Shown piece after piece: positions 1,962 through 63,592 of a DNA stretch of 64,000 bases (its first letter is position 1; the number at the start of each line of letters is the position of its first letter). The notes under the pieces were generated by a model, which saw only the letters and a list, made by a program, of their open reading frames with translations, had not been told where the DNA came from and did no database searches. The position numbers and the translations under genes were made by a program. Source of the DNA: Candidatus Mediterraneibacter excrementigallinarum (GTDB lineage: Bacteria > Bacillota > Clostridia > Lachnospirales > Lachnospiraceae); assembly GCA_019120075.1 (NCBI GenBank), contig DWVT01000127.1:16084-80083 (forward strand), given 5' to 3'.

Positions 1962-2856
1962 TCATCTGTTCTTCGGGATGCTTTTCAGTTTGTCCGAGAT
2001 TTCCTGCAGTTTATCTGTTGTAAAATTCATAAATCCGAGGATATCTTTCAGGAGCATGGTGTTTACCATATCCGGAATTTCTTCCACGTGCATGTGCTCC
2101 ATCATAGGCTGGAAATAAGGCAGTAACAGATCCTTCACTTCTTTGTCCTTCAGCAGATATCCCATTGTACAGTCCGGATTATAAAACGGATCGCGGTTTC
2201 CGTTTATCCTCGCCTTACATTTCGGTTCTGTCATCTCCTGGTTTCCAAAATCGCCGAGAACATCTTTCAGCCATTCCAGGCTGTCCTCTACCCAGTGCGG
2301 GACACGGCTGCAACAGTCAAATCCCGCCGCAACAGAAGTATCGCCGGTTGTAAATCCGTGAGGCGCGTAAGCATAGATATGGCTCTCGAATGAGATATCG
2401 TACTTTGTCAGAGCCTCCATCATTTTTATCGTATTCTTCACCGGTACCGTGGAATCGTTCCTGCTGGCAAACAGAAAACAGGGACAGGTATTGTCATCCA
2501 CCGCCTCAGCGGCATCCGGTGCCGACGGCAGGTATGTGGATACCGTCTCCTTATCTATTACGGGATAGCCAAGTATTGCAGCGTTGGGGCGGTTTTTCGA
2601 CATTACCGCGGCGCTTGCTGCAAGATGTCCGCCTGCCGAGAATCCGATGACCGCGATCTTGTCCGGGTACAGGCTCCATTTTTCCTCATTAGAACGGATC
2701 AGCCTCCCGATCGGAACACATGGTGTAACCGCCGCCTGGCAGGATCAGAACCGCGGGACGTCTGCTGATGTTTCTGAATTCTCCTCCTGCCGGCTGCAGA
2801 TATGCTGTCAGTGTCACGTTACGCTCTTCATTCAGGATCATGTTTTCTGTCTTCAT
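1962..2856 (-). pseudogene. Alpha/beta-hydrolase esterase pseudogene with an internal deletion; keeps the shared C-terminal tail
   Basis: Translation from ATG at 2856 gives MKTENMILNEERNVTLTAYL, then PAVLILPGGGYTMCSDREAD, and stops at TAA near 2691. In another frame from about 2700 the sequence resumes with IRSNEEKWSLYPDKIAV and the nucleophile motif GFSAGGHLAA, then runs to 1962. Compared with the intact paralogue at 34693-35658, about 55-60 residues between DREAE and the LIRE segment are missing and the frame is broken. A mainly in-place deletion explains this better than a single-base error. The last 77 residues (1962-2195; ...CTMGYLLKD...LQEISDKLKSI) are not part of the hydrolase fold. 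They match tails on two GH3 and two GH78 enzymes in this window. Intact relatives would act as carbohydrate acetyl esterases. Confidence 0.85.
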
Positions 2857-2994
2857 TTTTAGCCCTCTTTTCTTTATGTAGTCTGTTATATTATAACTCT
2901 TTTCTGTTCCTTCCTGTCACTTTTATCCTTTTCTTTTCTATTTTCTATATAAACTGTTCGAATGAAATACGAAAAATTTCCTGTCAGTATCTGT

Positions 2995-5742
2995 TCATAA
3001 AACATATTCTCTTTCCCAGATCCCGTTTCCCATTTCTTCTGTCTGCTCCCCGATCCTGAGGACCGCACTTGTGTTTGCCGGAATCTCGGCCTTTATCTTT
3101 ATGTTTCCGTTATCTTTCTTTTCCCATTTCACACGGATCCTGCCGTGGACACTGTCATAATATCCTTCTGCCGAGGTGACCGGACCGTCTGTCAGTGGAG
3201 CAATCTCAACCCTGCCATATCCCGGAGACTGACTTCGGATTCCCAGGATATTGCGGTACATCCAGTCTCCCACACAGCCGAACGCATAATGATTGAAAGA
3301 ACATCCGTCCCTGTTTCCATCCTCATCAATGGCGTTCCATGACTCCCACATGGTCGTAGCACCCCGGTCTACTTCATAGAGCCAGGACGGGCATTTGTCC
3401 TGAAAGAGCAGCTTCCACGCCTCCTCTTTCTCCCCGTTCTCCGTCAGCACATCCATGATATGTGGGACAGACATGAACCCACAGTCCATACATCCGTCAT
3501 TTTCCCGGATCTTTTCAAGAAGCCGCTTCATAATCTGCCCCCGGTGATTTTCTGATACCATATCCATCCTGAGAGTCAGGATATAGAGCCCCTGCAGGTC
3601 TCCTTCCAGCGTCCCGTCCGGTTTCAGATAAGTCCGCTCGAACGCCTGCCGTATTCTTTTCGCCAGCTTCCGGCACTCTTCCGCCTTTTCTTCGTCTCCC
3701 AGTATCTCTGCAATCCTGCCCAGCTTATCTGTGGTATCCGCATAGATTGCCGTTGCCACCTTGTGTCCCGTCAGGAAAGAGGATGCAGGGCCGTCCGCGA
3801 ACCCCTGCTCATTTTTCACGCTGGGGACCAGCCAGTCTCCAAAATGAAACCCTGTATTTAAAAGATAATGCTGATCCTCCAGTTCCTCCCCCTCAAGCTT
3901 CGCCGCCTCCGGACTCATCTGGTTCTCCGCTTCGTTTCTCAGGAAGGCATGCCACTTTTTCATCGCGTCATAATTTTCTTCCAGCACGGAACGGTCGCCG
4001 TAAATCTGGTACAGCTGCCACGGAAGTTCTACGATCACATCTCCCCACCCGGTCGACGCGCCGCCGATCTGCTGTATGTAATTTCTGATCAGAGGCACTG
4101 TGTTCTGTATCCCGCCGTTTTCCATCTGTTCCGCGCGCACAGACTTCAGCCATTCTTCATAGAATGACAGAAGATCCTGATTAAAGCAGGATGTCCTGCC
4201 GTAAATATATACATCCCCGGTCCAGCCCGCCTTCTCTCTGGTAGGGCAGTCTGTAGGGATCCCGACCAGATTGGAACGCTGGCTCCACATGATATTTTGC
4301 TGAAGTCTGTTCAGTCGTCTGTCAGAGCAGGAAAATTCTCCGGACTTATCATTGTCACTTCCTATGACAATGCCCGTAAACTGTTCCGCTTTCCAGTCCA
4401 TGTCCGGATCGGAAGTAATACGGACATATCGAAATCCATGATAGGTCATGGCAGGCTCAAAACTTTCATCACCTTTCCCGTTCAGGACATAGATATCTTT
4501 CTGCTTTTGCTCCCCGTCCGAGAAAGGATAGATAAAGTTCTCTGCTTTGTCCAGTTCCTCTGTATGCTCAAAGATAATCTCCTGTCCCCGTGTACCGTTG
4601 ATCCCTGTCACCCTGATATGCCCGGCAAAATTCTGTCCAAAATCAAGGATCTTTTCTCCTCTGCCGTTTATAAACAGTCTTTTCGGCTTTAATTCCATCA
4701 GACTGCGGATGGGAGCATCCGTCTGTGCCTTCAGCACCGACAAATCCTCTTCTGTCTTATGGACCGGTTTCCATCCTTTCGTGTCCATCTCCGACGTTGC
4801 AAATCCGGAAATCTCATATCGCCCGTCAACAGTCTGGCCGTTATACAGATCCGCTCTCCGGATCGGTCCCTCATAACTGAACAGGAATTCTTCATCTGTA
4901 CAGAGGCAATACTTTTCCCCGTCTTTCATTATCACATCAATTTCCATAAGAAGCCCCGGATTATCTCCGTATTCGCACCCGCATCCTGATGCGATCTTCC
5001 CTTTATACCATCCGTCCGCAATCACGGCCAATACAGCGTTCCCGCCCTTTTTAAGGAACTCTGTCACGTCATACACCTGATATTTCAGGATCTTGTCATA
5101 CGTCGTAAACTCCGGCTCCAATTCGGCATCTGACGCTTTTCTTCCGTTAATATATAACTCATAGATCCCATGAGCCGTAATGTACGCCCTCGCTTTCTGA
5201 GGGGTATCCTCAAGCATAAATTTCCTGTACATCATAACTGCCGGATAATAAGGCTGGCTTGGCTGAGCTTTCAGATAAGCGTCCGTGTCGAAAAACTCCG
5301 CCTGCTGCCTGGTAAATAATTTCTGCAGAAAAGCATTCCACTTTTTCCTGCACTCTTCAAGCGGATCAAAATCCAGTCCGGGAAGTTTATCCGGTTCCAC
5401 AAAACATGCCTTCCATTCCGAGGGATCCAGGATCACAGTCTCAAATATATTTTCTTCTGATACAAGTTTTTCTCCTGTGGTGAGTCCTGTCTCCACCTTC
5501 CAGGTGTAGTTCTCCCGGCTGGCGAGCGGTCTTCCGGCATACCGGACCCCGAAAGACTGTCTGCTCTGCACTTTCCCGCTGTCCCAGCAGATGCCCTTTT
5601 TGTCTCTTACGGTGATCCGGTACCACTCCTGATATACATTATCCAGTTCCGAACGGATCTGCCAGGAGAATCTCGGCTTTTTTGTATCTATATTGATGGG
5701 ATTGATCTTATTTTCACATTTCGGGTACGTGATCTGTGACAT
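2995..5742 (-). CDS. Alpha-L-rhamnosidase, GH78 (DCPTREK-type)
   Basis: A 915-residue GH78 enzyme that cleaves terminal alpha-L-rhamnose. Domain order is N-terminal beta-sandwich domains (1-370, with KPRFSWQIRS and DFGQNFAGH), the (alpha/alpha)6 catalytic barrel (about 470-830), and a C-terminal beta-sandwich. The catalytic loop reads D498-CPT-R-E503-K-AGWTG-D510. This spacing fits the Bacillus RhaB type, whose acid cluster is known as Asp567/Glu572/Asp579, whereas the other three GH78 proteins here have the one-residue-longer CPQR(D/N)ERLGW loop. No signal peptide is present. The start is chosen for GAAGGAGG upstream. It lies 52 bases after the next GH78 gene and is probably cotranscribed with it. 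The C-terminus has no shared tail. Confidence 0.93.
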   Translation of the reverse strand: MSQITYPKCENKINPINIDTKKPRFSWQIRSELDNVYQEWYRITVRDKKGICWDSGKVQSRQSFGVRYAGRPLASRENYTWKVETGLTTGEKLVSEENIFETVILDPSEWKACFVEPDKLPGLDFDPLEECRKKWNAFLQKLFTRQQAEFFDTDAYLKAQPSQPYYPAVMMYRKFMLEDTPQKARAYITAHGIYELYINGRKASDAELEPEFTTYDKILKYQVYDVTEFLKKGGNAVLAVIADGWYKGKIASGCGCEYGDNPGLLMEIDVIMKDGEKYCLCTDEEFLFSYEGPIRRADLYNGQTVDGRYEISGFATSEMDTKGWKPVHKTEEDLSVLKAQTDAPIRSLMELKPKRLFINGRGEKILDFGQNFAGHIRVTGINGTRGQEIIFEHTEELDKAENFIYPFSDGEQKQKDIYVLNGKGDESFEPAMTYHGFRYVRITSDPDMDWKAEQFTGIVIGSDNDKSGEFSCSDRRLNRLQQNIMWSQRSNLVGIPTDCPTREKAGWTGDVYIYGRTSCFNQDLLSFYEEWLKSVRAEQMENGGIQNTVPLIRNYIQQIGGASTGWGDVIVELPWQLYQIYGDRSVLEENYDAMKKWHAFLRNEAENQMSPEAAKLEGEELEDQHYLLNTGFHFGDWLVPSVKNEQGFADGPASSFLTGHKVATAIYADTTDKLGRIAEILGDEEKAEECRKLAKRIRQAFERTYLKPDGTLEGDLQGLYILTLRMDMVSENHRGQIMKRLLEKIRENDGCMDCGFMSVPHIMDVLTENGEKEEAWKLLFQDKCPSWLYEVDRGATTMWESWNAIDEDGNRDGCSFNHYAFGCVGDWMYRNILGIRSQSPGYGRVEIAPLTDGPVTSAEGYYDSVHGRIRVKWEKKDNGNIKIKAEIPANTSAVLRIGEQTEEMGNGIWEREYVL

Positions 5743-5794
5743 GATGTTCCTCCTTCTTGTTCATATGGGCTGACCATCTTATAATTTCATTATT

Positions 5795-8521
5795 TCAATT
5801 TTCCTGTCTGTTCAAAGCCGCCACAACTGCCTCATACATCGGTCTCGCCTCCGGTGCGGCCCCCAGCATCTCGGAAAGGGTCATCTGTTTTGCAAACTGG
5901 ATCATAGGATTATCCAGCGTTCCCGGGACCATCTGGTTGAACATCTGTACTGCGAGAGGCTGCTGAAGGATCTCGCCGAATGTACTGTCCATGCTGAACC
6001 GTTCTGCTTTCAGACTTGTTGCAGTGTCATACTCATATTCATAGACTCCGGAGCCGGTCTCGATCTCTCCTTCCTTTTCCGGAAGGACGATAACCGCGGT
6101 TGTATTTGCCGGTATTTCCACATGGATCTGTATCTTTCCGTCTTTGCAGCTGTATCTGCTGACGATCTTTCCGTAGGGTGATTCCAGTTCTGCCCCTGCT
6201 CCCTCGATCCCTTTTACGAACATCGGCCTGATCAGGATCTTCTTATATCCCGGCTCAAGCTGATTGATTCCTGCGATCTTCCGGTACATCCAGTCTCCGA
6301 TGGAACCATATGCATAGTGATTCAGGGAATTCATGCCCGATTCGTCAAAAGTGCCGTCCGGCCTGATTGAATTCCATCTCTCCCATATTGTTGTCGCCCC
6401 CATATTTACCGCATAAAGCCAGGACGGATAATCCTCCCTCATAAAGAGTGTTGATGCCATATCGTGAGCACCGTTTTCCGAGAGCGCATGACAGATATAC
6501 GGGGTTCCCACAAATCCTGTCGCCAGATGATTCTTATGGTTTTCAATGTTTGTAAGCAGCGTTTTCAGTATCCTTCCGCGGTCTTTCTCCCTTGCCAGAT
6601 TAAAGTACAGGGAAAGTATACATCCTGTCTGCGTCTCGCTGACAATCCTTCCCGTCTCTGTATAATATTCTTTCCGGAATGCCGCCAGTGTTTTCTCATA
6701 CAGATGTGCATACTTCTCCGCTTCGTCTTCAAATCCGAGCACTTCTGCGGTCTGCTTTACCAGATCTGTCACATAGAGATAATAGGCATTGGCGATCATA
6801 TATTTATCCGTAGCCCCGGTACGGTCCGCGCTTTCCTCCTTGTCAAGGGCAAGCCAGTCGCCGTACTGGAAACCGCTCATCCAGAGACCGTTCTCTTCAC
6901 AGTGGTTTGTGATATAATCCACCCACTCATGCATGCATTTCCAGTTTTCTTCCAGAATCCGTTTATCTCCGTAAGTCTGATACACTACCCACGGAATGAT
7001 GACCGCAGCGTCGCTCCATGCGGAAGAGCTGTACTGTTCCAGGATATCGGGAACCACATGAGGGACCCCCTGTTCCAGTGAAGAATCCGCAGAAACATCC
7101 CGCATCCATTTCGTAAAGAACAGCGCCGTATTTCTCAGATAAGATGCAGTCCAGGAAAATACCTGCGCGTCTCCCATCCATCCGAGACGCTCGTCCCTCT
7201 GCGGGCAGTCTGTCGGAATATCAAGAAAGTTGTCTCTCATTCCCCAGGAAATATTACTCTGCAGCTGATTTACCTTCTTGTTAGAGCAGGAGAAAGTACC
7301 GGTCTGCTCCATATCCGAGTGCATGACGCAGGCAGTGAACATCTCCGGCTTCATCTCTTCAATCCCATCCACCTTGATATAACGGAATCCATGAAATGTG
7401 AAATGAGGAAGAAATGTCTGTTCTTCTCCATTACAGATGTATGTGTCTTCTGACTTTGCGGAGCGGAGTGTCTCCGGATAGAAGTTGCCGTCTTTGTCCA
7501 GTGTCTCTGCATGGTGTATTACGATTTTCTGGCCCTTTTCCCCCCTGATCTTCACTTCCACCAGCCCGGTCAGGTTCTGTCCGAAATCAACAAGACGCTC
7601 CCCTTTTGGAGTCACGATCAGTTCTTTTGCCGGAATCCGCTCCGTAATCCGCACCGGCTCATTTTCCTGGGCAGTGAGAACGGATTTATCAAACTCCATG
7701 ACAGAGACATTTCCTGTCCGATAATCTGTCGTTACTGTGTCGATCGTCTCTCCCATATAGATTTCGCTGTAACGGATCTCCCCGGTACGGACACCCCAGT
7801 CTCTGTCCGTAGCGATGACTTCTCTTGTCCTGTCTTCATATGTGATATGCAGTTCTGCAAACACGCCAACCCTGTCGCCATACCGGTCAGGCTTCAGGTC
7901 AAAGCCGAAAATTCCCTTATACCATCCGTTCCCCGCCGTGATCTCAATCCGGTTGTCCTGGCGGATCTGGGAAGTAATATCATACTCCTGATACTGGAGC
8001 CTTTTATGATAGCTGGTCCATCCCGGCGTCATCCGGTCCGCTCCGATTCGCTCTCCGTTCAGAGACATCTCATACACACCCAGCGCAGTGGCATATACAA
8101 CAGCCTTTTTTACCGGCTTCTCTGTATAGAACTCTCTGTAAAACACCGGGCAGGAAGTCTCTTCCGCCGGGAAGTCATGAGTGATCATCCGGGCATGAAA
8201 TGTCCGGGGGTCAAAAATCCCGGTCTCAAAGGAAGTCTCCGCGCTGTCTGCCCTTCCATAGTTATCCCATACCGTTGCCTTTACCCGGTAAAGGGTTTCA
8301 TCTTTCAGAGGCATTCCTTCATACGGGATCAGGACAGAATCACTGCTCTCCCTCATTCCCGTGTCCCAGACGCAGTTCTCTCCGTCCATGACCCGGATCC
8401 GGCAGATCGTCTGCATTACATTTTTCTCATCCGACCGTATTTTCCATGAAAATCTCGGTTGTCTAACAGACAGTCCGAACGGTGATTTCCTGTATTCTGT
8501 TCTGAGATCATATATTTTCAT
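5795..8521 (-). CDS. Alpha-L-rhamnosidase, GH78, with the shared C-terminal tail
   Basis: A 908-residue GH78 protein. Catalytic loop residues are D438 CPQR D443 E444 RLGWMG D451, and the family motif NHYAYGSIGDWMYR is present near residue 750. The open frame extends 30 codons further upstream to 8611, but ATG at 8521 has GGAGGAATGC directly upstream and begins MKIYDLRTEY like its homologues, so that start is preferred. Residues 842-908 (FSMDSTFGEILQQPLAVQMF...VVAALNRQEN) lie beyond the normal GH78 C-terminal beta domain. They match tails on GH3 enzymes and an esterase in this window. The protein is cytosolic, since no signal peptide is seen. It is encoded between the GPH symporter (90-base gap) and another GH78. 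Confidence 0.93.
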   Translation of the reverse strand: MKIYDLRTEYRKSPFGLSVRQPRFSWKIRSDEKNVMQTICRIRVMDGENCVWDTGMRESSDSVLIPYEGMPLKDETLYRVKATVWDNYGRADSAETSFETGIFDPRTFHARMITHDFPAEETSCPVFYREFYTEKPVKKAVVYATALGVYEMSLNGERIGADRMTPGWTSYHKRLQYQEYDITSQIRQDNRIEITAGNGWYKGIFGFDLKPDRYGDRVGVFAELHITYEDRTREVIATDRDWGVRTGEIRYSEIYMGETIDTVTTDYRTGNVSVMEFDKSVLTAQENEPVRITERIPAKELIVTPKGERLVDFGQNLTGLVEVKIRGEKGQKIVIHHAETLDKDGNFYPETLRSAKSEDTYICNGEEQTFLPHFTFHGFRYIKVDGIEEMKPEMFTACVMHSDMEQTGTFSCSNKKVNQLQSNISWGMRDNFLDIPTDCPQRDERLGWMGDAQVFSWTASYLRNTALFFTKWMRDVSADSSLEQGVPHVVPDILEQYSSSAWSDAAVIIPWVVYQTYGDKRILEENWKCMHEWVDYITNHCEENGLWMSGFQYGDWLALDKEESADRTGATDKYMIANAYYLYVTDLVKQTAEVLGFEDEAEKYAHLYEKTLAAFRKEYYTETGRIVSETQTGCILSLYFNLAREKDRGRILKTLLTNIENHKNHLATGFVGTPYICHALSENGAHDMASTLFMREDYPSWLYAVNMGATTIWERWNSIRPDGTFDESGMNSLNHYAYGSIGDWMYRKIAGINQLEPGYKKILIRPMFVKGIEGAGAELESPYGKIVSRYSCKDGKIQIHVEIPANTTAVIVLPEKEGEIETGSGVYEYEYDTATSLKAERFSMDSTFGEILQQPLAVQMFNQMVPGTLDNPMIQFAKQMTLSEMLGAAPEARPMYEAVVAALNRQEN

Positions 8522-8611
8522 ATTGCATTCCTCCTTGCGTTTTCCTGATTCAGATACAGCGGACCGCAGACTTCCCTGCGCTCCGCTGTATTTTCTTCTG
8601 GGGCGTTTCAT

Positions 8612-10015
8612 TTAGTTTTTAGATTTTTTCTTTTCCAGCTCTGCCTGAATCTCCGGAAGTTTCTTTTCCAGATCAAATTTCATGGCAACAATGAACATGA
8701 TCACAAACATCGCCAGCGGAGCATAGATGTTAAATGTAAAGATTGCCTGTTTCACCGCCGGAGTAAGTACCGTCGCCGTTGCGTCATACGCCGCGATCGC
8801 CAGGCACCATCCGATCATGGACGCTCCTACCCCGTTTCCTACTTTTGAGCCGAAGCTGGCAGCCGCCTGAGAAGAACCGACCATTCGTTTTCCAAACTTG
8901 AATTCATTATAGTCGATAGACATCGCCGTTACAGTTCCGAGGAGGCACATCATCGGAATATTCGCAAATGTGGAGAAGCATCCCAGAACCGCGTTGTAAA
9001 CAAAGTTATATGGATTGATGATCCTCAGGACATTTCCGACGATACCGATCACAAAGGAAACCCGAAGTGATTTTGTAACGCCCAAAGTCTTGATCAGGAT
9101 CGGTGTCACAGCAAATCCTATCACAGTCGGAATCAGGCCTACACCGCCCAGGATTCCAACCAGGTTATCGTTTCCGTAGATCCATTTGCAGTAATATGTT
9201 CCTGACGAGTTTGACAGTCCGTAGAATATATTTGAGCATACTGCAAGGATCAGAGCCATAACCCAGTATTTATTGTGGAAGAGACATTTCAGTGTCTCAC
9301 CAAATGGAAGGCTCTCTTCTTCCTCCGCTGCAGGAGCCTCTGCCTCCTGTCCTTCAACCGCGACATACTCTTTGCTTGTCTTATAGGTTACGAACAGAAG
9401 AATTGCAGAAACTACAGCGAGTCCGGCACTGAACATAACCCATGCCTTCTGATCCCCGCCCAGCATATTTGTGATAGGGATGATCATGACTGCGATGATC
9501 ATTCCGGACACATAACCGGCCGCTGCACGCCATGTTCCCATCTTCGCGCGTTCTTCCTGGCTGTTTGTGCGGACGACCATGATCGCCTGATAAGGCACAC
9601 AGATGATCGTATAGATCACTGCTGTAAACAGGAAGTTTGTAATGAACATATATGCAATCTGAAGCGGCGAACTCACATTCGCGGGAACCGTGAACATCAG
9701 TACCATCACGACTGCCATGGGGATGATCATCCGGAAGATCCAGGGTCTGTACTTTTCTTTTCCCGGTTTCGTGTGGTCAACAACATATCCCATGATGATA
9801 TCCGTAAAAGCATCCAGTATCTTGACGATCAGAAGCGCTGTGGCAATCGCTCCAGCCGCAACTCCTACTTTGTCTGTATAAAAATATGTAAGCTGTCCGA
9901 CCAGCCCGCTGATCGCGTTCAGGGAAAACTGCCCTGCCGCATCTCCCAGGTAATCCGGCATCCGCATTACTTTCTGGATTCCCATCTTATCTTTTCCAAG
10001 TGGTTTCTTTGCCAT
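8612..10015 (-). CDS. GPH-family sugar:cation symporter (MFS_2)
   Basis: A 467-residue integral membrane protein with about 12 hydrophobic segments. It has the glycoside-pentoside-hexuronide family signatures near the N-terminus: LTYFYTDKVG, then ILDAFTDIIMGYVVDHTKPGKEKYRPWI. Members import melibiose, xylosides, glucuronides and oligosaccharides with Na+ or H+. Its place between GH3 (27-base gap upstream) and two GH78 genes suggests import of a rhamnosylated glycoside that the cytosolic enzymes then split. The C-terminal tail is charged (EKKLPEIQAELEKKKSKN). The start has GGAAGAGAGGG upstream. Confidence 0.92.
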   Translation of the reverse strand: MAKKPLGKDKMGIQKVMRMPDYLGDAAGQFSLNAISGLVGQLTYFYTDKVGVAAGAIATALLIVKILDAFTDIIMGYVVDHTKPGKEKYRPWIFRMIIPMAVVMVLMFTVPANVSSPLQIAYMFITNFLFTAVIYTIICVPYQAIMVVRTNSQEERAKMGTWRAAAGYVSGMIIAVMIIPITNMLGGDQKAWVMFSAGLAVVSAILLFVTYKTSKEYVAVEGQEAEAPAAEEEESLPFGETLKCLFHNKYWVMALILAVCSNIFYGLSNSSGTYYCKWIYGNDNLVGILGGVGLIPTVIGFAVTPILIKTLGVTKSLRVSFVIGIVGNVLRIINPYNFVYNAVLGCFSTFANIPMMCLLGTVTAMSIDYNEFKFGKRMVGSSQAAASFGSKVGNGVGASMIGWCLAIAAYDATATVLTPAVKQAIFTFNIYAPLAMFVIMFIVAMKFDLEKKLPEIQAELEKKKSKN

Positions 10016-10042
10016 TTTAATTCCCTCTCTTCCTTTCTTATC

Positions 10043-12337
10043 CTACTGTGCGTTCAGCGCATCTACTAACTGCTGCAGCATCTCCCGTGTCACCCCGGGC
10101 ACAAAACTTAAAAGCTGCCTGAGCGGCATATCCTCCATCATCGCCGCCATCATCTCACTGCTGACTGCTGCAGAGGGATCTTCCGCCTGTTTTTCCTGCT
10201 GCTTCTGCATTTCCACCGCATCCGTGTTCTGCGCCATACCGCCCATGAACGAGCCCATCACCGCCTGTGCCTTCGGATCTCTCAACAGCGGTCCGAGACA
10301 CGTGTTGAGTGTATATACTGTCGGGATGACTTTTGTTCCCTGTACCTGCACCGGTGCGCTCAGGACCATCTCCCGGGCGTTCTTTCCGATCATCACCTGA
10401 TATTCTCCTCTGTCCACATACCAGTCATGGATTTCTTCATTCCAGTATGCAAAGGCTCTCTGATCCAGTGTGAAAGATACTTCTTTTTCTTCTCCCGGTT
10501 CCAGCGCGATCTTATCGAATCCCCTCAGCTCCACCGCCGGACGGATCGTTTCACCTGCGGCGGGTGAGACATAGAGCTGTACTGCTTCTTTGCCTTTTCT
10601 GGCGCCTGTATTCTTCACTTTCACCGTCACTGTCAGAGTATCCTGATCTGTCATCTGCTCTCTGTCGAGCTTCAGATCACTGTATGTAAACCTGGTATAG
10701 GAGAGTCCATACCCAAAGGGGAACAGCACTTCTCTGCCCACAGAGGTATAATACCGGTATCCGACGAACACGCCTTCCTGATATACCGCATGATCGCCGC
10801 CTTTTCCATAGGTCAGATAACAGGGTGTATCCTCCAGTCTTGCCGGGAATGTCTCCGGCAGACGTCCGCTGGGGTTTTTCCTTCCATACAGAATGTCTGC
10901 CACTGCTCTTCCCACTGCCTGGCCGCCCAGATATGCTTCAATGATTCCCTTTACTTTATCTTTCCAGGGCATCAGTACCGGTGAGCCGTTATGCAGGACG
11001 ACAACCACATTTTCCTGTACTTCTGCGATCTTCTCGATCAGCCTGTTCTGACATTCCGGCATATTCAGGTGCTTCCTGTCATACCCTTCGGATTCGAAGC
11101 TGTCCGGAAGCCCGGCGAAGATCACAGCAACATCCGCTTCTTCCGCAGTCTTCACCGCCTCAGCCACCAGACTCTCATCACTCCGGTCTTCCGCGTCGTC
11201 ATACCCCTTCGCATAGGTTACTTCTGCAATTCCTTTTACCGCTTCCAGGGCAGATTCTACTTTCCAACTGTTGATGTGGGAACTCCCTCCTCCCTGGTAC
11301 CGGGGCGCCTCCGCATATTTCCCGATAAATGCCACTTTCTTCTCCCCCGAAAGCGGAAGGATATCTTCTTCATTCTTCAACAGTACGATACATTCTTCTT
11401 CAATAGAGGCTGCCGTCTCATGGTCTTGTTCCAGATCCAGCTTTGCCGTCTTATCCCGGTTTTCAGAGTAGAGGAAAATGATATCTATGATCCTCTCACA
11501 CGCCGTATCCACCACACTTTCATCCAGCGTGCCATCCTTTACCGCCTCAACGATCAGGGCATCGTTCATTCCGCCGCTCGAAGGCATTTCCAGATCCAAA
11601 CCTGCCTTGAGACCTTCTACACGGTCGTTGACCGCCCCCCAGTCGGACATCACATAACCGTCAAATCCCCATTCCCCTCTCAGGATATCTGTAAGATATT
11701 TTTTTGACTCACCTACATAGTCCCCGTTGATCCGATTGTAGGAATTCATGACAGTCCACGGTTTTCCTTTCTTCACCGCGCCTTCAAAAGCTGCCAGATA
11801 GATTTCCCTGAGTGTTCTCTCATCGACGTCTGAAGAGCTGGTCATCCTGCGTTTTTCCTGATTATTCGCCAGAAAATGCTTTACGCTTGTCCCAACATTT
11901 CTGCTCTGCACACCCTGGATCATGGCCGCCGCCAGTTCCGATGCTACGAAGGGATCTTCGGAATAATACTCGAAGTTCCTGCCGCAGAGGGGCGAACGTT
12001 TAATGTTTATGGCCGGGCCAAGGATGGTGCTGACGCCCATTGCCTGACACTCCTGTCCAATGGTCTCCCCCAGCTTTCTCAAGACATCCCGGTCAAAGCT
12101 GGACGCAGTCGCGCATCCAGCAGGAAAGCAGACCGCCTTTTCACTCTCGTTGATCCCGAGATGATCTGCGGCTTCCGCCTGCTTTCTCAGCCCGTGAGGT
12201 CCGTCAGTCACCATGACAGACGGGATACCCAGCCTTTCCACACCTTTCAGGTGCCAGAAATCTGCCCCGGAGCACATGCCTGCTTTTTCCTCCAGTGTCA
12301 TCTGTGCCACCAGATCTCTAATCTTCTCTCTTGTCAT
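10043..12337 (-). CDS. Beta-glycosidase, GH3, with the shared C-terminal tail
   Basis: A 764-residue GH3 enzyme with a TIM-barrel domain (1-310), an alpha/beta-sandwich (about 330-540) and a fibronectin III-like domain (560-660). The nucleophile is D232 in VMSDWGA. KHF (153-155) and GRNFEYYSEDP (119-129) are further substrate-site motifs. No secretion signal is present. Residues 670-764 (YTLNTCLGPLLRDPKAQAVM ... MPLRQLLSFVPGVTREMLQQ) form an extra helical tail shared with four other enzymes here. GGAGG precedes the ATG. It is the first gene of the operon GH3-GPH-GH78-GH78-(esterase)-SASA. Specificity (glucoside, xyloside or arabinoside) is not decidable from sequence; beta-glucosidase is the default. 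It is a close paralogue of the GH3 at 61328. Confidence 0.93.
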   Translation of the reverse strand: MTREKIRDLVAQMTLEEKAGMCSGADFWHLKGVERLGIPSVMVTDGPHGLRKQAEAADHLGINESEKAVCFPAGCATASSFDRDVLRKLGETIGQECQAMGVSTILGPAINIKRSPLCGRNFEYYSEDPFVASELAAAMIQGVQSRNVGTSVKHFLANNQEKRRMTSSSDVDERTLREIYLAAFEGAVKKGKPWTVMNSYNRINGDYVGESKKYLTDILRGEWGFDGYVMSDWGAVNDRVEGLKAGLDLEMPSSGGMNDALIVEAVKDGTLDESVVDTACERIIDIIFLYSENRDKTAKLDLEQDHETAASIEEECIVLLKNEEDILPLSGEKKVAFIGKYAEAPRYQGGGSSHINSWKVESALEAVKGIAEVTYAKGYDDAEDRSDESLVAEAVKTAEEADVAVIFAGLPDSFESEGYDRKHLNMPECQNRLIEKIAEVQENVVVVLHNGSPVLMPWKDKVKGIIEAYLGGQAVGRAVADILYGRKNPSGRLPETFPARLEDTPCYLTYGKGGDHAVYQEGVFVGYRYYTSVGREVLFPFGYGLSYTRFTYSDLKLDREQMTDQDTLTVTVKVKNTGARKGKEAVQLYVSPAAGETIRPAVELRGFDKIALEPGEEKEVSFTLDQRAFAYWNEEIHDWYVDRGEYQVMIGKNAREMVLSAPVQVQGTKVIPTVYTLNTCLGPLLRDPKAQAVMGSFMGGMAQNTDAVEMQKQQEKQAEDPSAAVSSEMMAAMMEDMPLRQLLSFVPGVTREMLQQLVDALNAQ

Positions 12338-38077: not shown

Positions 38078-40861
38078 TCAGATCACTGCCAGTTTCTCCA
38101 GTTCCTCCACTGCTTTCTTAAGCTGTTCCGGGTCAAAGGGAAGGAATCCCAGGTGTGACACCACTTCCAGCGTCTCAAATCCGAATTCCGGATCCCCTGC
38201 CTTCGCCATTCCTGCAAGGGGCGGCGCATATTTCGCAAGGATCCCGAGTGCCCTCCCATCCTGCCCGATCCGGCAGAGCGTGGTGTTCCAGCTGTAGGGA
38301 TGGATATAATCCCTGGTCGGCATATATTCAAAGTCATAGGATCCTGCTTTCAGCGTCTGAACGCCTTTCTCATAGTCCGGCAGTTCCACTTCCGCCGTAC
38401 ATCCGAATGGGATCTCCACATGCACCTTCAGTTTTCCATCCTTACAGATCTCAAAATTGCAGACATATTTTCCGCTGACGGAATCGTAGCTGCACTCGAT
38501 CTTCGGAAGACGGATATCCGGATGGGGCGCGATCACAGCCTTTTTAAATCCCGGTTCCGCCGGACGGATGCCCGCTGCATAGTCGTACACGAACTCCATG
38601 ACAGAGCCGTAGGAATAGTGATTCAGCGAATTCATGCCTGTCGGACTGATGGTTCCGTCCGGAAGGACGGAGTTCCATCTCTCCCAGATAGTTGTGGCCC
38701 CCAGATTGACACTGTACAGCCAGCTTGGGAATCCCTCCCGGAGCAGAAGGTCGTAAGCCAGTTCATAGAGGCCGGCCTCCGCCAGGACGGTGCACAGAAG
38801 CGGAGCCCCAACAAAGCCACATTTGATCTGGTTCCCGTCCTTTTTCAGCCGTTCCCGGAACTCGCTGACAGTGCGCTCCCGGTCAATATAGATTCCGAAC
38901 TTCAGTGCAATGACATAGGAAGCCTGAGTACTCATGGCCAACCTTCCATTCGGCGTAAAGTACTCCCGGAGGATCGCGTCCCGGATCCTTTCCTCAAGGT
39001 CTGCATAGCGGACGGCATCCTCTGTTTTTCCCAGTTTCTGTGCCGCCTCTTTTACGATCTTCACGGACTGACAGTAATACATGGACGCGATATATGTATC
39101 GTCCGTGCTCCCCTTAAAGCTCTCCTGAGTCGGCCCGTCCAGAGCAAGCCAGTCTCCAAAGTGGAATCCGAAATCGAACAGATAATGTCTCTCTCCCCGC
39201 TCTCCGTCTTTCCGGTCAATATAGTCCACCCAGTCTTTCATCATGGGATAGCAGTATTCCAGTTCTTCCAGACTTCCGTAATATCTGTAGAGCGTATACG
39301 GCAGGAAAGTACCGATGTCTCCCCAGACGCTTCCCGCATCGTCCTTGTGTCCGATGTTGGGCACATAGTTGGGGATGGCGCCGTCCAGGAACTTCTGCTC
39401 ATCTCTTAAGTCCTTGACAAACTTGTGGAAGAACGCCCGTGTATCCATGTGATAGCTTGCCGTAGGAGAGAACACCTGCGCATCCCCGGTCCAGCCCAGC
39501 CGCTCGTTTCTCTGCGGGCAGTCCGTGGGCATATCAAGAAAGTTTGATTTCATCCCCCATACCGTATTCTCATAGAGACGGTTGATCTTCTCATCAGATG
39601 TATGGATATATCCGGTGCGCTGAAGGTCTGAATAAAGGACCTTTCCCGTAAAGTCTTCCTTCCTCAGTTCTCCCTCCCATCCGGTCACCTTCACATAGCG
39701 GAAACCGTAGAAGGTAAAGTGGGGATGCACGGTTTCCGGGGTACCGTCAGACACATAGACAAGCTGAGATTCTGCCTCACGGTAGTTCCCGTTGTAGAAA
39801 TTACCGTTCTGGAGAATTTCGCCAAAGTTCAGCGTCACTTTCGTGCCTCTCGGGAGCTGTGACCGGAACTCCATAAATCCGGCAAAGTTCTGTCCCATAT
39901 CAAGCACAGTCTCTCCGGCAGGCGTATGGATGATCTCTTTTACATCCACTTCTTCCTTCACGATCACCGGAAGGCTCAGACGATCCATGAGATGGGATTT
40001 CACCAGGTTCTTTGTTCCCGGATCTTTCTCCGGATCTGCCAGCACTTCCACATCTTTCCAGGGATTCTCTTTCCCGTCCCAGAGGAGACGGTTTAAGATC
40101 TCTCCGAAATAGATTCCCGACTCTTCAATATCCGAGCCCCGATACTGCCATGTTCCATCGGTGCAGATACACTCCTCTGTGCCGTCCTTATATTCCAGAT
40201 AAAGCTCTCCGATAGCCGCCATGCGGTCTCCGTAATTCTCCGACTGCCCTTCCAGTCCGAAGGTTCCCATATACCAGCCCTTACCCAGGAGGAATTCCAG
40301 AGTGTTTTCTCCTTCTTTCACATCTGCAGGAAATGTAAACGTCTGGATATTCGTCTCATAATTGTTGATATAAGGCGCCAGATACTCTTCTCCCAGTTTC
40401 TTTCCGTTTAAATACGCCTCAAACACGCCCACTCCGGTGGCATAAAGCCTTGCCCGCTTCACCGGACGCTCCGCCCGGAAGGATTTTCTCAGGACAGGAT
40501 GGAACCGGTCCTCCTTTGCCGGAGAGATCCACTGGGCTTTCCACTCCTCATCCATCTTCCCGGTCTCAAAATATCCGGTCCCGACAGCGGAATCTCCCTT
40601 GTCGCCTGTGACATGAACACGGTACCAATAGCTGGTCCTCGGCTTTAATTCTATATCAATGACCGTACCCGTCCGGTCCAGATCCTCTCCTTTCTTTTCC
40701 CAGAGGATTTCAGAAAAATCTTCCGAGGAGCTGACCTGGATCTTTGCGTCGGTCTGCTCCCGGCTCTCTGTCTCCTCCACTTTCCAGGAGCAGATCACTT
40801 TGTCCAGGGTATATCCCACCGGACCTGTGACGCCATTGATCTTTAACTGTGTTATCTTCAT
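38078..40861 (-). CDS. Alpha-L-rhamnosidase, GH78, with a divergent copy of the shared tail
   Basis: A 927-residue GH78 enzyme. Catalytic loop D447 CPQR N452 E453 RLGWTG D460, with Asn where two other GH78 proteins here have Asp. NHYSYGSVMEFVYDYAAGI and an N-terminal WKVEETESR sandwich are also seen. Residues 851-927 (YSWNTTLCRIGQDGRALGIL ... FDPEQLKKAVEELEKLAV) extend beyond the usual C-terminus and align with the extra tails on two GH3, one GH78 and an esterase pseudogene. GGAAGAAG precedes the ATG. Second gene of its operon, 106 bases after the NagZ-like GH3. Confidence 0.93.
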   Translation of the reverse strand: MKITQLKINGVTGPVGYTLDKVICSWKVEETESREQTDAKIQVSSSEDFSEILWEKKGEDLDRTGTVIDIELKPRTSYWYRVHVTGDKGDSAVGTGYFETGKMDEEWKAQWISPAKEDRFHPVLRKSFRAERPVKRARLYATGVGVFEAYLNGKKLGEEYLAPYINNYETNIQTFTFPADVKEGENTLEFLLGKGWYMGTFGLEGQSENYGDRMAAIGELYLEYKDGTEECICTDGTWQYRGSDIEESGIYFGEILNRLLWDGKENPWKDVEVLADPEKDPGTKNLVKSHLMDRLSLPVIVKEEVDVKEIIHTPAGETVLDMGQNFAGFMEFRSQLPRGTKVTLNFGEILQNGNFYNGNYREAESQLVYVSDGTPETVHPHFTFYGFRYVKVTGWEGELRKEDFTGKVLYSDLQRTGYIHTSDEKINRLYENTVWGMKSNFLDMPTDCPQRNERLGWTGDAQVFSPTASYHMDTRAFFHKFVKDLRDEQKFLDGAIPNYVPNIGHKDDAGSVWGDIGTFLPYTLYRYYGSLEELEYCYPMMKDWVDYIDRKDGERGERHYLFDFGFHFGDWLALDGPTQESFKGSTDDTYIASMYYCQSVKIVKEAAQKLGKTEDAVRYADLEERIRDAILREYFTPNGRLAMSTQASYVIALKFGIYIDRERTVSEFRERLKKDGNQIKCGFVGAPLLCTVLAEAGLYELAYDLLLREGFPSWLYSVNLGATTIWERWNSVLPDGTISPTGMNSLNHYSYGSVMEFVYDYAAGIRPAEPGFKKAVIAPHPDIRLPKIECSYDSVSGKYVCNFEICKDGKLKVHVEIPFGCTAEVELPDYEKGVQTLKAGSYDFEYMPTRDYIHPYSWNTTLCRIGQDGRALGILAKYAPPLAGMAKAGDPEFGFETLEVVSHLGFLPFDPEQLKKAVEELEKLAVI

Positions 40862-61327: not shown

Positions 61328-63592
61328 ATGGAACGTAATCTGAAAGAACTTGTAAGCCAGATGACACTGGAAGAGAAAGCCGGCATGTGCTCCGGCCTTG
61401 ACTTCTGGCACCTGAAATCCGTAGACCGCCTCGGCATTCCCAGCGTCATGGTCAGCGACGGCCCTCACGGACTGCGCAAACAGGATGACAAGGCAGATTA
61501 CCTCGGCATCAACGAGAGCATCAAGGCAGTCTGCTTTCCTCCCGCTGTTTTAAGCGCCTGCTCCTTTGACAGGGACCTGCTGAGGGAACTGGGCGACACT
61601 GTCGGGAAGGAAGCACAGGCAACCGATGTCTCCGTGGTACTTGGACCTGCCGTAAATATCAAGAGATCCCCTCTCTGCGGCCGGAATTTTGAATATTATT
61701 CCGAGGATCCCTATCTTGCCGGAGAATCTGCCGCCGCGTTCATCGACGGAGTCCAGTCTCATCATGTGGGTACATCCATCAAACATTTTGCAGCCAACAA
61801 CCAGGAACTGAACCGGATGAGCTGTTCTTCCGAAGTCGATGAGAGAACCCTCCGGGAGATCTATCTTCCCGCGTTTGAGACCGCTGTAAAGAAATCTCAG
61901 CCCTATACTGTCATGTGCTCCTACAACAAGATCAACGGCACCTATTCGTCCGAGAATCCCTGGCTGCTGACCGAAGTGCTCCGGGATGAATGGGGCTTTG
62001 AAGGTTATGTCATGTCAGACTGGGGCGCTGTCAATGAAAGAGTTCCCGGACTTAAAGCCGGACTCGACCTGGAGATGCCGACGTCCGGAGGACTGACCGA
62101 CAGGGAGATCGTGGCGGCTGTACAGGACGGTTCTCTTGACGAGTCTGTCCTTGACCAGGCAGTGGAGCGGATCCTCCGTATCACCTTCACCTGGCTGGAC
62201 AACAGAGAGGAACAGGACTTTACTCTTGAAGCGGACCACGAAACTGCCCGCAGGATTGCCGAGGAGTCCATGGTCCTTCTGAAAAATGAGAACGTTCTCC
62301 CGCTTACTCCTTCAGAGAACGTCGTGTTCATCGGCGGATTTGCGAAGAAGCCGCGTTATCAGGGAGGAGGAAGTTCCCACATCAACAGCTTCCGTGTCGA
62401 CAGTGCGATTGACGCAGTCAGGGACATCGCTGAAGTATCCTACGTAGAAGGATTCTCTTCCTCCAAAGACATCTATGATGAGAAACTGGCGGCAGAGGCT
62501 GTCGAAGCGGCAAAAAAAGCAGATAAGGCAGTCATCTTCGCAGGACTTCCCGACAGCTTTGAATCCGAGGGATATGACCGTTCCCACATGCGCCTCCCAG
62601 AATGTCAGGACCGTCTGATCCGTGAGATTGCGGAAGTCCAGCCGAATACCATCGTCGTCCTCCACAACGGCTCCCCGGTGGAGATGCCCTGGAAAGATGA
62701 TGTGAAAGGACTGCTTGAGGCATATCTCGGAGGACAGGCAGGGGGCTCTGCTGTTGTAAACATCCTCTACGGAAAGGTCAATCCATCCGGTAAGCTGGCC
62801 GAGACTCTGCCTCTCAAGCTCTCTGACAATCCATCCTACCTGAACTTCGCTGAGAGGGAAAAAGTAAATTACAGCGAGGGCGTTTTCGTGGGATACCGCT
62901 ATTACGACGCAAAGGAAATGGAAGTGGCATTCCCCTTCGGGCACGGCCTCTCCTATACCACATTCAAATACAGTAACCTGAAACTGGACCGCACAGAGAT
63001 GACAGATCAGGATACACTGACTGTTTCCGTCGATGTGACAAACACCGGCAGCCGCGCAGGAAAAGAAGTGGTACAGCTCTATGTCAGCGACCGGACCGGA
63101 TCTGTCAGAAGACCGCTGAAAGAACTGAAAGGCTACGAGAAAGTATCCCTTGAACCCGGCGAGACAAAGACGGTCACCATGACTCTGGACAAGAGAAGCT
63201 TTGCCTGGTACAGTACAGAACTCCACGACTGGTATGCCGCATCCGGAGAATATGAGATCCTCATCGGCGCATCCTCCCGGGATATACGCCTGACGGAAGA
63301 AATCCGTCTTGACAGTACCCAGAAGCTTCCTTTGAACCTTACTCTGAACACTCCCATGGGAGACCTGATCGCAGACGAACGTACAAGAGAATTCGGTCTT
63401 TTCCTTAAGCAGAAGATGGATGAATTCTTCGGAGCAACAGGATCAGACACCAAGCTCAGTGACGATGACTCTGACGAAGATCCGATGGCTGACGCAATGG
63501 CTGCTTCCATGCCGATCCGCAATGTAGTCTCCTTCGGTCTTATGGAAAAAGAAGAACTTTTCAGGAAACTGAAAGAGTTTAACGAAAAATAG
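61328..63592 (+). CDS. Beta-glycosidase, GH3, with the shared tail and an acidic linker
   Basis: A 754-residue GH3 enzyme and close paralogue of that at 10043-12337. It shares CSGLDFWHLK, SDGPHGLRKQ, GRNFEYYSEDP and nucleophile D231 in YVMSDWGA. It ends in a fibronectin III-like domain (VTNTGSRAGKEVVQLYVSD). Residues 667-754 form the shared tail in two parts: TLNTPMGDLIADERTREFG and MPIRNVVSFG...LFRKLKEFN. They are joined by a very acidic stretch (GSDTKLSDDDSDEDP). No signal peptide. GGAAG precedes the ATG. It is controlled, by inference, by the divergent AraC gene. Confidence 0.93.
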   Translation: MERNLKELVSQMTLEEKAGMCSGLDFWHLKSVDRLGIPSVMVSDGPHGLRKQDDKADYLGINESIKAVCFPPAVLSACSFDRDLLRELGDTVGKEAQATDVSVVLGPAVNIKRSPLCGRNFEYYSEDPYLAGESAAAFIDGVQSHHVGTSIKHFAANNQELNRMSCSSEVDERTLREIYLPAFETAVKKSQPYTVMCSYNKINGTYSSENPWLLTEVLRDEWGFEGYVMSDWGAVNERVPGLKAGLDLEMPTSGGLTDREIVAAVQDGSLDESVLDQAVERILRITFTWLDNREEQDFTLEADHETARRIAEESMVLLKNENVLPLTPSENVVFIGGFAKKPRYQGGGSSHINSFRVDSAIDAVRDIAEVSYVEGFSSSKDIYDEKLAAEAVEAAKKADKAVIFAGLPDSFESEGYDRSHMRLPECQDRLIREIAEVQPNTIVVLHNGSPVEMPWKDDVKGLLEAYLGGQAGGSAVVNILYGKVNPSGKLAETLPLKLSDNPSYLNFAEREKVNYSEGVFVGYRYYDAKEMEVAFPFGHGLSYTTFKYSNLKLDRTEMTDQDTLTVSVDVTNTGSRAGKEVVQLYVSDRTGSVRRPLKELKGYEKVSLEPGETKTVTMTLDKRSFAWYSTELHDWYAASGEYEILIGASSRDIRLTEEIRLDSTQKLPLNLTLNTPMGDLIADERTREFGLFLKQKMDEFFGATGSDTKLSDDDSDEDPMADAMAASMPIRNVVSFGLMEKEELFRKLKEFNEK

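Follow-up and report, generated by a model that had tools for sequence, protein, structure and literature searches.

Carbohydrate-binding modules are portable accessory domains on many glycoside hydrolases (GHs), and flavin mononucleotide (FMN)-binding β-glucuronidases (GUS) of family GH2 were reportedly described by Pellock 2019. Excerpts from work on gut bacterial GUS describe a C-terminal domain (CTD) of ~150 residues that bears on which glucuronides are cleaved. A stop at residue 644 that removes the CTD of Rh2GUS causes an eightfold drop in activity on mycophenolate glucuronide (MPAG), and docking models put the domain, modelled as a gate, ~3 Å from the aglycone (PMC9377255). In Rh3 GUS the CTD is important for triclosan glucuronide; it is mobile in crystals and unresolved in structures to date, and its alteration lowers activity, reportedly without structural change (PMC8748916). 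GUS of the CTD class are moreover said to favour small metabolites (PMC12036448). In these excerpts GUS are the only proteins said to have the domain; GH3, GH78, esterases, cytochrome P450s and free proteins are not named as carriers. Here we analyse 64,000 nucleotides of Candidatus Mediterraneibacter excrementigallinarum (Lachnospiraceae; contig DWVT01000127.1, positions 16,084 to 80,083), hereafter the window, in which one operon encodes a GH3 enzyme, a GH78 α-L-rhamnosidase and a broken esterase that share a C-terminal tail. On sequence comparison, the three end in one homologous domain, and relatives of this domain also end the GUS CTD.

The three operon tails, all on the minus strand, measure 68–91 residues: that of GH3 (10043..10318) is a long linker form of 91 amino acids, that of GH78 (5795..6001) a short form of 68 amino acids, and the third (1962..2186) is the end of the esterase remnant. 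An earlier note on this DNA, close to these coordinates, had proposed that one tail with a common motif order was shared by enzymes whose main folds are unrelated, and both the homology and the motif order were borne out. Compared pairwise, with 1000 shuffles per pair, the GH3 tail is weakly above chance against the tails of GH78 (z 3.5, p 0.007) and of the esterase (z 4.4, p 0.002), and the GH78–esterase pair reaches z 1.6 (p 0.089). It is a chain of relatives that makes the homology firm: a profile built from the three operon tails finds a fourth one, on a GH2 enzyme elsewhere in the same genome (E 2.3e-4), which in turn scores z 8.0 against both the GH3 and the GH78 tail (z 1.0, p 0.18 against the esterase tail). 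Likeness by chance or through a generic domain was rejected on the basis of profile searches across genomes and of empty scans of curated libraries. The tails also lie, as had been claimed, beyond the known domains of their enzymes: Fn3-like stops at residue 653 of 764 in GH3 and Bac_rhamnosid_C at 855 of 938 in GH78 (library scan), so that neither of these curated accessory domains covers them, and no generic domain of Pfam or NCBIfam matches them. The two libraries hold no model of the tail domain apart from the full-length NCBIfam model NF041610 (exo-alpha-(1->6)-L-arabinopyranosidase), which alone extends into the GH3 tail, reaching residue 761 of the enzyme with 807.6 bits, under its cut-off of 1300.

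What ties the tails to the GUS CTD is a search of PDB sequences with the tail profile A3. It matched the ends of the GH2 chains 7kgz (Rh3 GUS; E 2.1e-22), 6mvh (2.6e-12) and 8ges/8get (7e-12) and, more weakly, 6mvg (4e-9) and 6mvf (9e-4). The chains other than 7kgz are deposited as β-glucuronidase or β-galactosidase, and 6mvh, 6mvg and 6mvf are presumably FMN-binding GUS. To judge from these matches, the domain of the window tails is the one that ends the CTD of gut β-glucuronidases, of which it makes up the terminal ~80 residues. The two share the terminal sequence, the terminal position and GH2 carriers (30 of 101 distinct phylum tails, besides the GH2 of the window's own genome), whereas the published CTD is larger than the tail. 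The profile further matches the C-termini of two GH3 structures, 7ms2 (C. thermocellum) and 8j9f. Judged by its name, the PSTG1 of 8j9f and 9lql is probably PSTG or a near relative, an enzyme that acts on sesaminol triglucoside and forms a tetramer (PMC3622683, in excerpt). Among open-licence PMC texts we found no paper devoted to 7ms2 or 8j9f, no description of their C-terminal region as a domain common to other enzyme families, and none joining the GUS CTD with GH3, GH78, esterase, P450 or free forms, although subscription papers may do so. What is known from GH2 glucuronidases as a gate, unresolved in their structures, that affects drug reactivation would then belong to a wider, unnamed family, which besides GH2 takes in GH3, GH78, esterases, P450s and free proteins. 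This link draws attention to crystallised GH3 enzymes whose tail appears resolved, since the chains of 7ms2 are modelled for 745 and 750 of 755 residues and the tail is thus ordered there, and the GH78 tail offers a compact 68-residue form for study alone.

Structure prediction agrees with a common fold. In the AlphaFold2 models of the GH78 tail (pLDDT 93.4) and of the esterase tail (pLDDT 83.8), five helices and one short bridge follow each other in identical order. In Foldseek searches against the PDB, where no tail-model match had an E below 0.001, GH3 7ms2 was the top match of both (TMq 0.57 for the GH78 tail, 0.70 for the esterase tail), followed by PSTG1 (9lql/8j9f) and then by 2k5e and 2k53, which we take to be DUF1858 structures (TMq 0.53–0.60, E 0.97–3.6). 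Within 7ms2 and PSTG1 the match probably falls on the C-terminus, the region that also bears the tail sequence. The same predicted helix order and the shared match to 7ms2 led us to reject unrelated folds for the GH78 and esterase tails. Neither outcome that the note had named as a refutation, unrelated folds or a match to a known generic domain alone, arose for these two tails. Two further hits were set aside as noise, namely YtfE 5fnn (Foldseek probability 0.08) and, for the GH78 tail, the methyltransferase 2qyo (0.06).

The models weakly suggest that the tail has a DUF1858-like fold without belonging to DUF1858. The two seem alike in overall helical arrangement and share a T-x-G-E-L-L...P start, and in hhalign comparisons with 28 DUF1858 proteins the profiles A3, A4, A6 and A7 beat 60 of 60 column shuffles, whereas for A5 22 of 60 shuffles were equally good; three of the four better alignments cover 22–24 columns and the fourth 59. 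The 28 rows (30 loci gave 29 pattern matches, from which L198 was dropped as wrong; L numbers denote loci) were chosen by a pattern that demands CxxC. This motif occurs in none of the 101 phylum tails and in none of 66 tails from the genome scan described below, and the DUF1858 Pfam model gave no match in scans of 23, 3 and 35 tails; on these two grounds, plain membership of DUF1858 (PF08984) was rejected. The tail also differs in sitting C-terminally on hydrolases, and the Foldseek matches to DUF1858 do not fall below E 0.97.

How widespread is the domain? Counting the window's own genome throughout, tails were found in 26 of 100 genomes of the same family (5-row profile A2, E<=0.01), 20 of 148 of the class (A3, E<=0.001) and 7 of 249 of the phylum (A4, E<=0.01). 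The search of same-family genomes that the note had called for, confined to those of at least 90% completeness, yielded 87 tailed genomes out of 298 (37-row profile A7, E<=0.001), 53 of which hold a single copy at E<=0.001, a threshold that distant copies may escape. The 101 distinct phylum tails are attached to GH3 (45), GH2 (30), lp_1002-like esterases (9) and GH78 (7), with no partner assigned for 10; labels were given by similarity to a few reference proteins and spot-checked with Pfam. All but one finish no more than 22 residues short of the C-terminus, the exception being the doubtful match L071, which like L049 is probably a false profile match. Four of the partnerless tails are clean small genes from the same class (L067, L069, L070, L074). 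A fifth candidate of this kind, an 83-aa tail frame with no enzyme ahead (L038:1988-2239, minus), flanked by what look by eye like tsaB-like, tsaE-like and aspartokinase-like genes, was rejected as a free tail gene, for it has no proper gene start; it looks like a relic, probably of a decayed GH2. Another of the partnerless tails, in a same-family protein (L186:917-1594, minus), follows a long Lys/Ala/Thr-rich repeat stretch.

Outside the phylum the domain occurs chiefly unattached. With a free form as query, tblastn (E up to 1) picked up plasmid records of Sphingobium (14), Novosphingobium (5), Rhizobium (4, marginal) and Sphingomonas (1), 24 in all, and a genome scan gave 61 loci, chiefly from sphingomonads, with a few records of Nitrospirillum, Asticcacaulis, Aestuariicella and Burkholderiales; a first viral scan found no match. 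The 61 loci hold 66 tail open reading frames (ORFs), 59 of them shorter than 300 aa and mostly with a start that by eye resembles a signal peptide. Profile comparison joins six sphingomonad free tails to 23 tails of the window's class (probability 98.2%, E 4e-14). Fused forms in the same loci comprise four cytochrome P450s (two Pfam-confirmed) and two carboxylesterases (one Pfam-confirmed), each with a C-terminal tail. N-terminal placement was seen only in two ThuA-like proteins (L115:6272-7828, minus, and L128:3684-4838), whose weak copy (A7, E 0.02-0.04) apparently follows a signal peptide. Free forms must act in trans. GH2, GH3, GH78 or GH97 genes lie within 6 kb in 20 of the 61 loci; of the 28 GH-like ORFs there, some of them fragments, not one carries a fused tail. 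In four sphingomonad loci (L093, L095, L100, L108) the gene order is GH78-GH3-TetR-free tail, with the same enzyme pair that bears fused tails in the window. In a control that used 29 of the 61 loci, from 29 genomes, a GH3 gene was near 8 free tails against 0.53 expected (183 GH3 matches in ~142 Mb), an excess that overstates independence because the loci are related and a single GH3-TetR-tail arrangement accounts for six of the eight positives.

Single free-form loci offer further observations. One sphingomonad free-tail gene lies near an ORF that by eye looks like GH2 (L088:4962-6164), another near an annotated GH97 gene (L085:3437-5446). In Burkholderiales metagenome-assembled genomes (L146-L150, around 6001; L148 321-512) the likely start of the free tail, MAFSIESTVGDLL..., gives no signal peptide; in L146 a gene for an AMP-binding enzyme adjoins it, and clustering finds related ORFs in 6 of the 61 loci. 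Novosphingobium sp. Chol11, which we take to be a bile-salt degrader, a habit that would suit an aglycone role, has four free-tail loci in one genome (L092, L094, L103, L114). A 474-aa ORF over a TetR gene in L113 probably has a wrong start and was discarded.

What might such a tail do? Its composition is distinctive: Met makes up 8.1% of tail residues against 2.1% of the enzyme bodies and is higher in 87 of 90 tails (ten partnerless and one short-bodied of the 101 were left out), whereas Trp, Tyr, His and Cys are under-represented, which suits a pliable hydrophobic surface. A tree of 96 tails (L038, L049, L071, L182 and L184 excluded; 85 columns, 49 of 93 inner forks open) groups them by partner family, with 6 changes of partner against a minimum of 4 and a shuffled mean of 43.9; none of 200 shuffles was as low. 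Because of this grouping, of the single copies in 53 of 87 genomes and of the GUS work, the tail appears to work with its own enzyme. This in-cis evidence, together with the Met-rich composition, leads us to infer, tentatively and with a little less than even confidence, that hydrophobic aglycones are gated or gripped by the tail, a portable module working in cis and, for some lineages, in trans.

The mechanism would run as follows. One mobile, compact, Met-rich five-helix domain, DUF1858-like in fold but minus the cysteine pair, would have been joined, for the most part at the C-terminus, to hydrolases of several families, some with members known to act on small-molecule conjugates. In the GH2 glucuronidases the CTD that contains it would sit at the mouth of the active site, as in the published models, and removing (Rh2) or altering (Rh3) that CTD lowers activity on drug-type glucuronides according to the excerpts cited above. 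By analogy, the tails of GH3, GH78 and the esterase may flank the active site in cis and there act as a mobile gate or grip on the hydrophobic aglycones of glycosides and esters from plants or the host. The free, secreted-looking tail of sphingomonads may play this part in trans, serving enzymes encoded nearby. If true, this gives a testable account of the way in which bacteria of gut and soil select among drug, flavonoid and lignan conjugates. A bolder version, possible though doubtful, would make the tail an "aglycone-binding module", portable on GH2, GH3, GH78, two esterase families and P450s and free and secreted in sphingomonads, which would serve the non-sugar half of conjugates as carbohydrate-binding modules serve the sugar half. 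If the gate-or-grip reading is right, the tail would, like those modules, be a portable accessory to many glycoside hydrolases; unlike theirs, its proposed target is the aglycone, its partners include esterases and P450s, and no carbohydrate-binding module matched the tails in our scans.

Several observations weigh against an aglycone gate or grip. Met richness could serve packing only, and both the Rh2GUS truncation and the ~150-residue CTD include more than the tail. Among the free forms, 41 of 61 loci lack a GH2, GH3, GH78 or GH97 neighbour (searched with few reference proteins as queries), and frequent neighbours are instead SDR, TetR, TonB, MR_MLE, ThuA and PQQ genes. From the excerpts, CTD-bearing Rh2 GUS is poor on triclosan glucuronide, and the abundance of FMN-binding GUS is uncorrelated with triclosan release in fecal samples (PMC8748916); CTD GUS stand behind the Loop 1, NTL and mini-Loop 1 classes on naringenin glucuronide (PMC12036448); and for PSTG, substrate resistance is explained partly by the branched glycon, the word aglycone being absent from the excerpt (PMC3622683).

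Of the alternatives, a purely structural role survives best, unlikely as we judge it: the tail would pack on its own catalytic domain or across a homo-oligomer, contributing to stability or assembly with no direct part in substrate choice. The grouping of tails by catalytic family, the ordered tail of 7ms2 and the tetrameric state of PSTG would all fit. A mere packing element is, however, harder to reconcile with a GUS CTD that is mobile and unresolved in crystals and yet cuts activity when altered, with the existence of free, secreted-looking tails, or with the domain being optional within one genome, that of the window, where it is present on just 3 of 10 GH3 genes (from 11 PF00933 matches, of which one frame holds two) and on 3 of 12 GH78 (PF17389) matches.

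The earlier note had preferred a docking or co-assembly tag, whereby binding between tails, or of tails to one shared partner, would join GH3, GH78, esterase and GH2 enzymes. This we regard as rather improbable and, as a general rule, not supported: 53 of 87 tailed genomes hold exactly one copy, even if the window's own holds eight, and tails follow their enzyme family. Moreover, the GH78 gene adjacent to the tailed one has no tail, and no neighbour family tested recurs in more than 22 of the 61 free-form loci. What keeps docking alive is that tails co-occur on GH3 and GH78 in the window operon and in L181 (with a tailed GH2 nearby) and L187, and that free forms exist, four of them in the sphingomonad loci with the ordered GH78-GH3 pair. 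A redox, metal or cofactor domain from DUF1858/ScdA_N-like ancestors, or an FMN module, is very improbable, since despite the DUF1858 resemblance in fold and profile, the noise-level YtfE hit and the binding of FMN by tailed Rh3 GUS, the tails lack CxxC, and the FMN in 7KGZ lies ~30 Å from the active site and is visible while the CTD is unresolved (PMC8748916, in excerpt), for which reason the FMN version was set aside.

Returning to the window, library scans place the tailed GH3 enzyme at 10043..12337 and the tailed GH78 α-L-rhamnosidase at 5795..8611, with an MFS_2 sugar transporter (8612..10015) between them. The untailed neighbouring GH78 (2995..5742) stops at its C-terminal sandwich, where a tail would start. 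Of the broken lp_1002-like α/β hydrolase, the part open from an ATG spans 1962..2603; the gene is disrupted upstream, but the frame that holds both its G-x-S-x-G motif and the tail runs for ~260 codons without a stop. All of these genes are on the minus strand. A related GH3-GH78 cluster with both enzymes tailed is found in two other same-family genomes (L181, 1887-17632; L187, 3365-11644), and upstream in L181 lies a short GH2 ORF with a tail.

Profile searches located two more tail domains within the window, one at 38078..38299 (minus) in a second tailed GH78 (ORF 38078-40861) and one at 63335..63592 (plus) in a second tailed GH3 (ORF 61328-63592). With iterated profiles, the genome as a whole has at least eight tailed proteins: three GH3, three GH78, one GH2 and the esterase. 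Its 3.5 Mb (contigs C220, C67, C47, C71 and others) contain the 12 GH78 domain matches and ten GH3 genes mentioned above, a number that, judged from this genome alone, suggests a degrader of plant glycosides.

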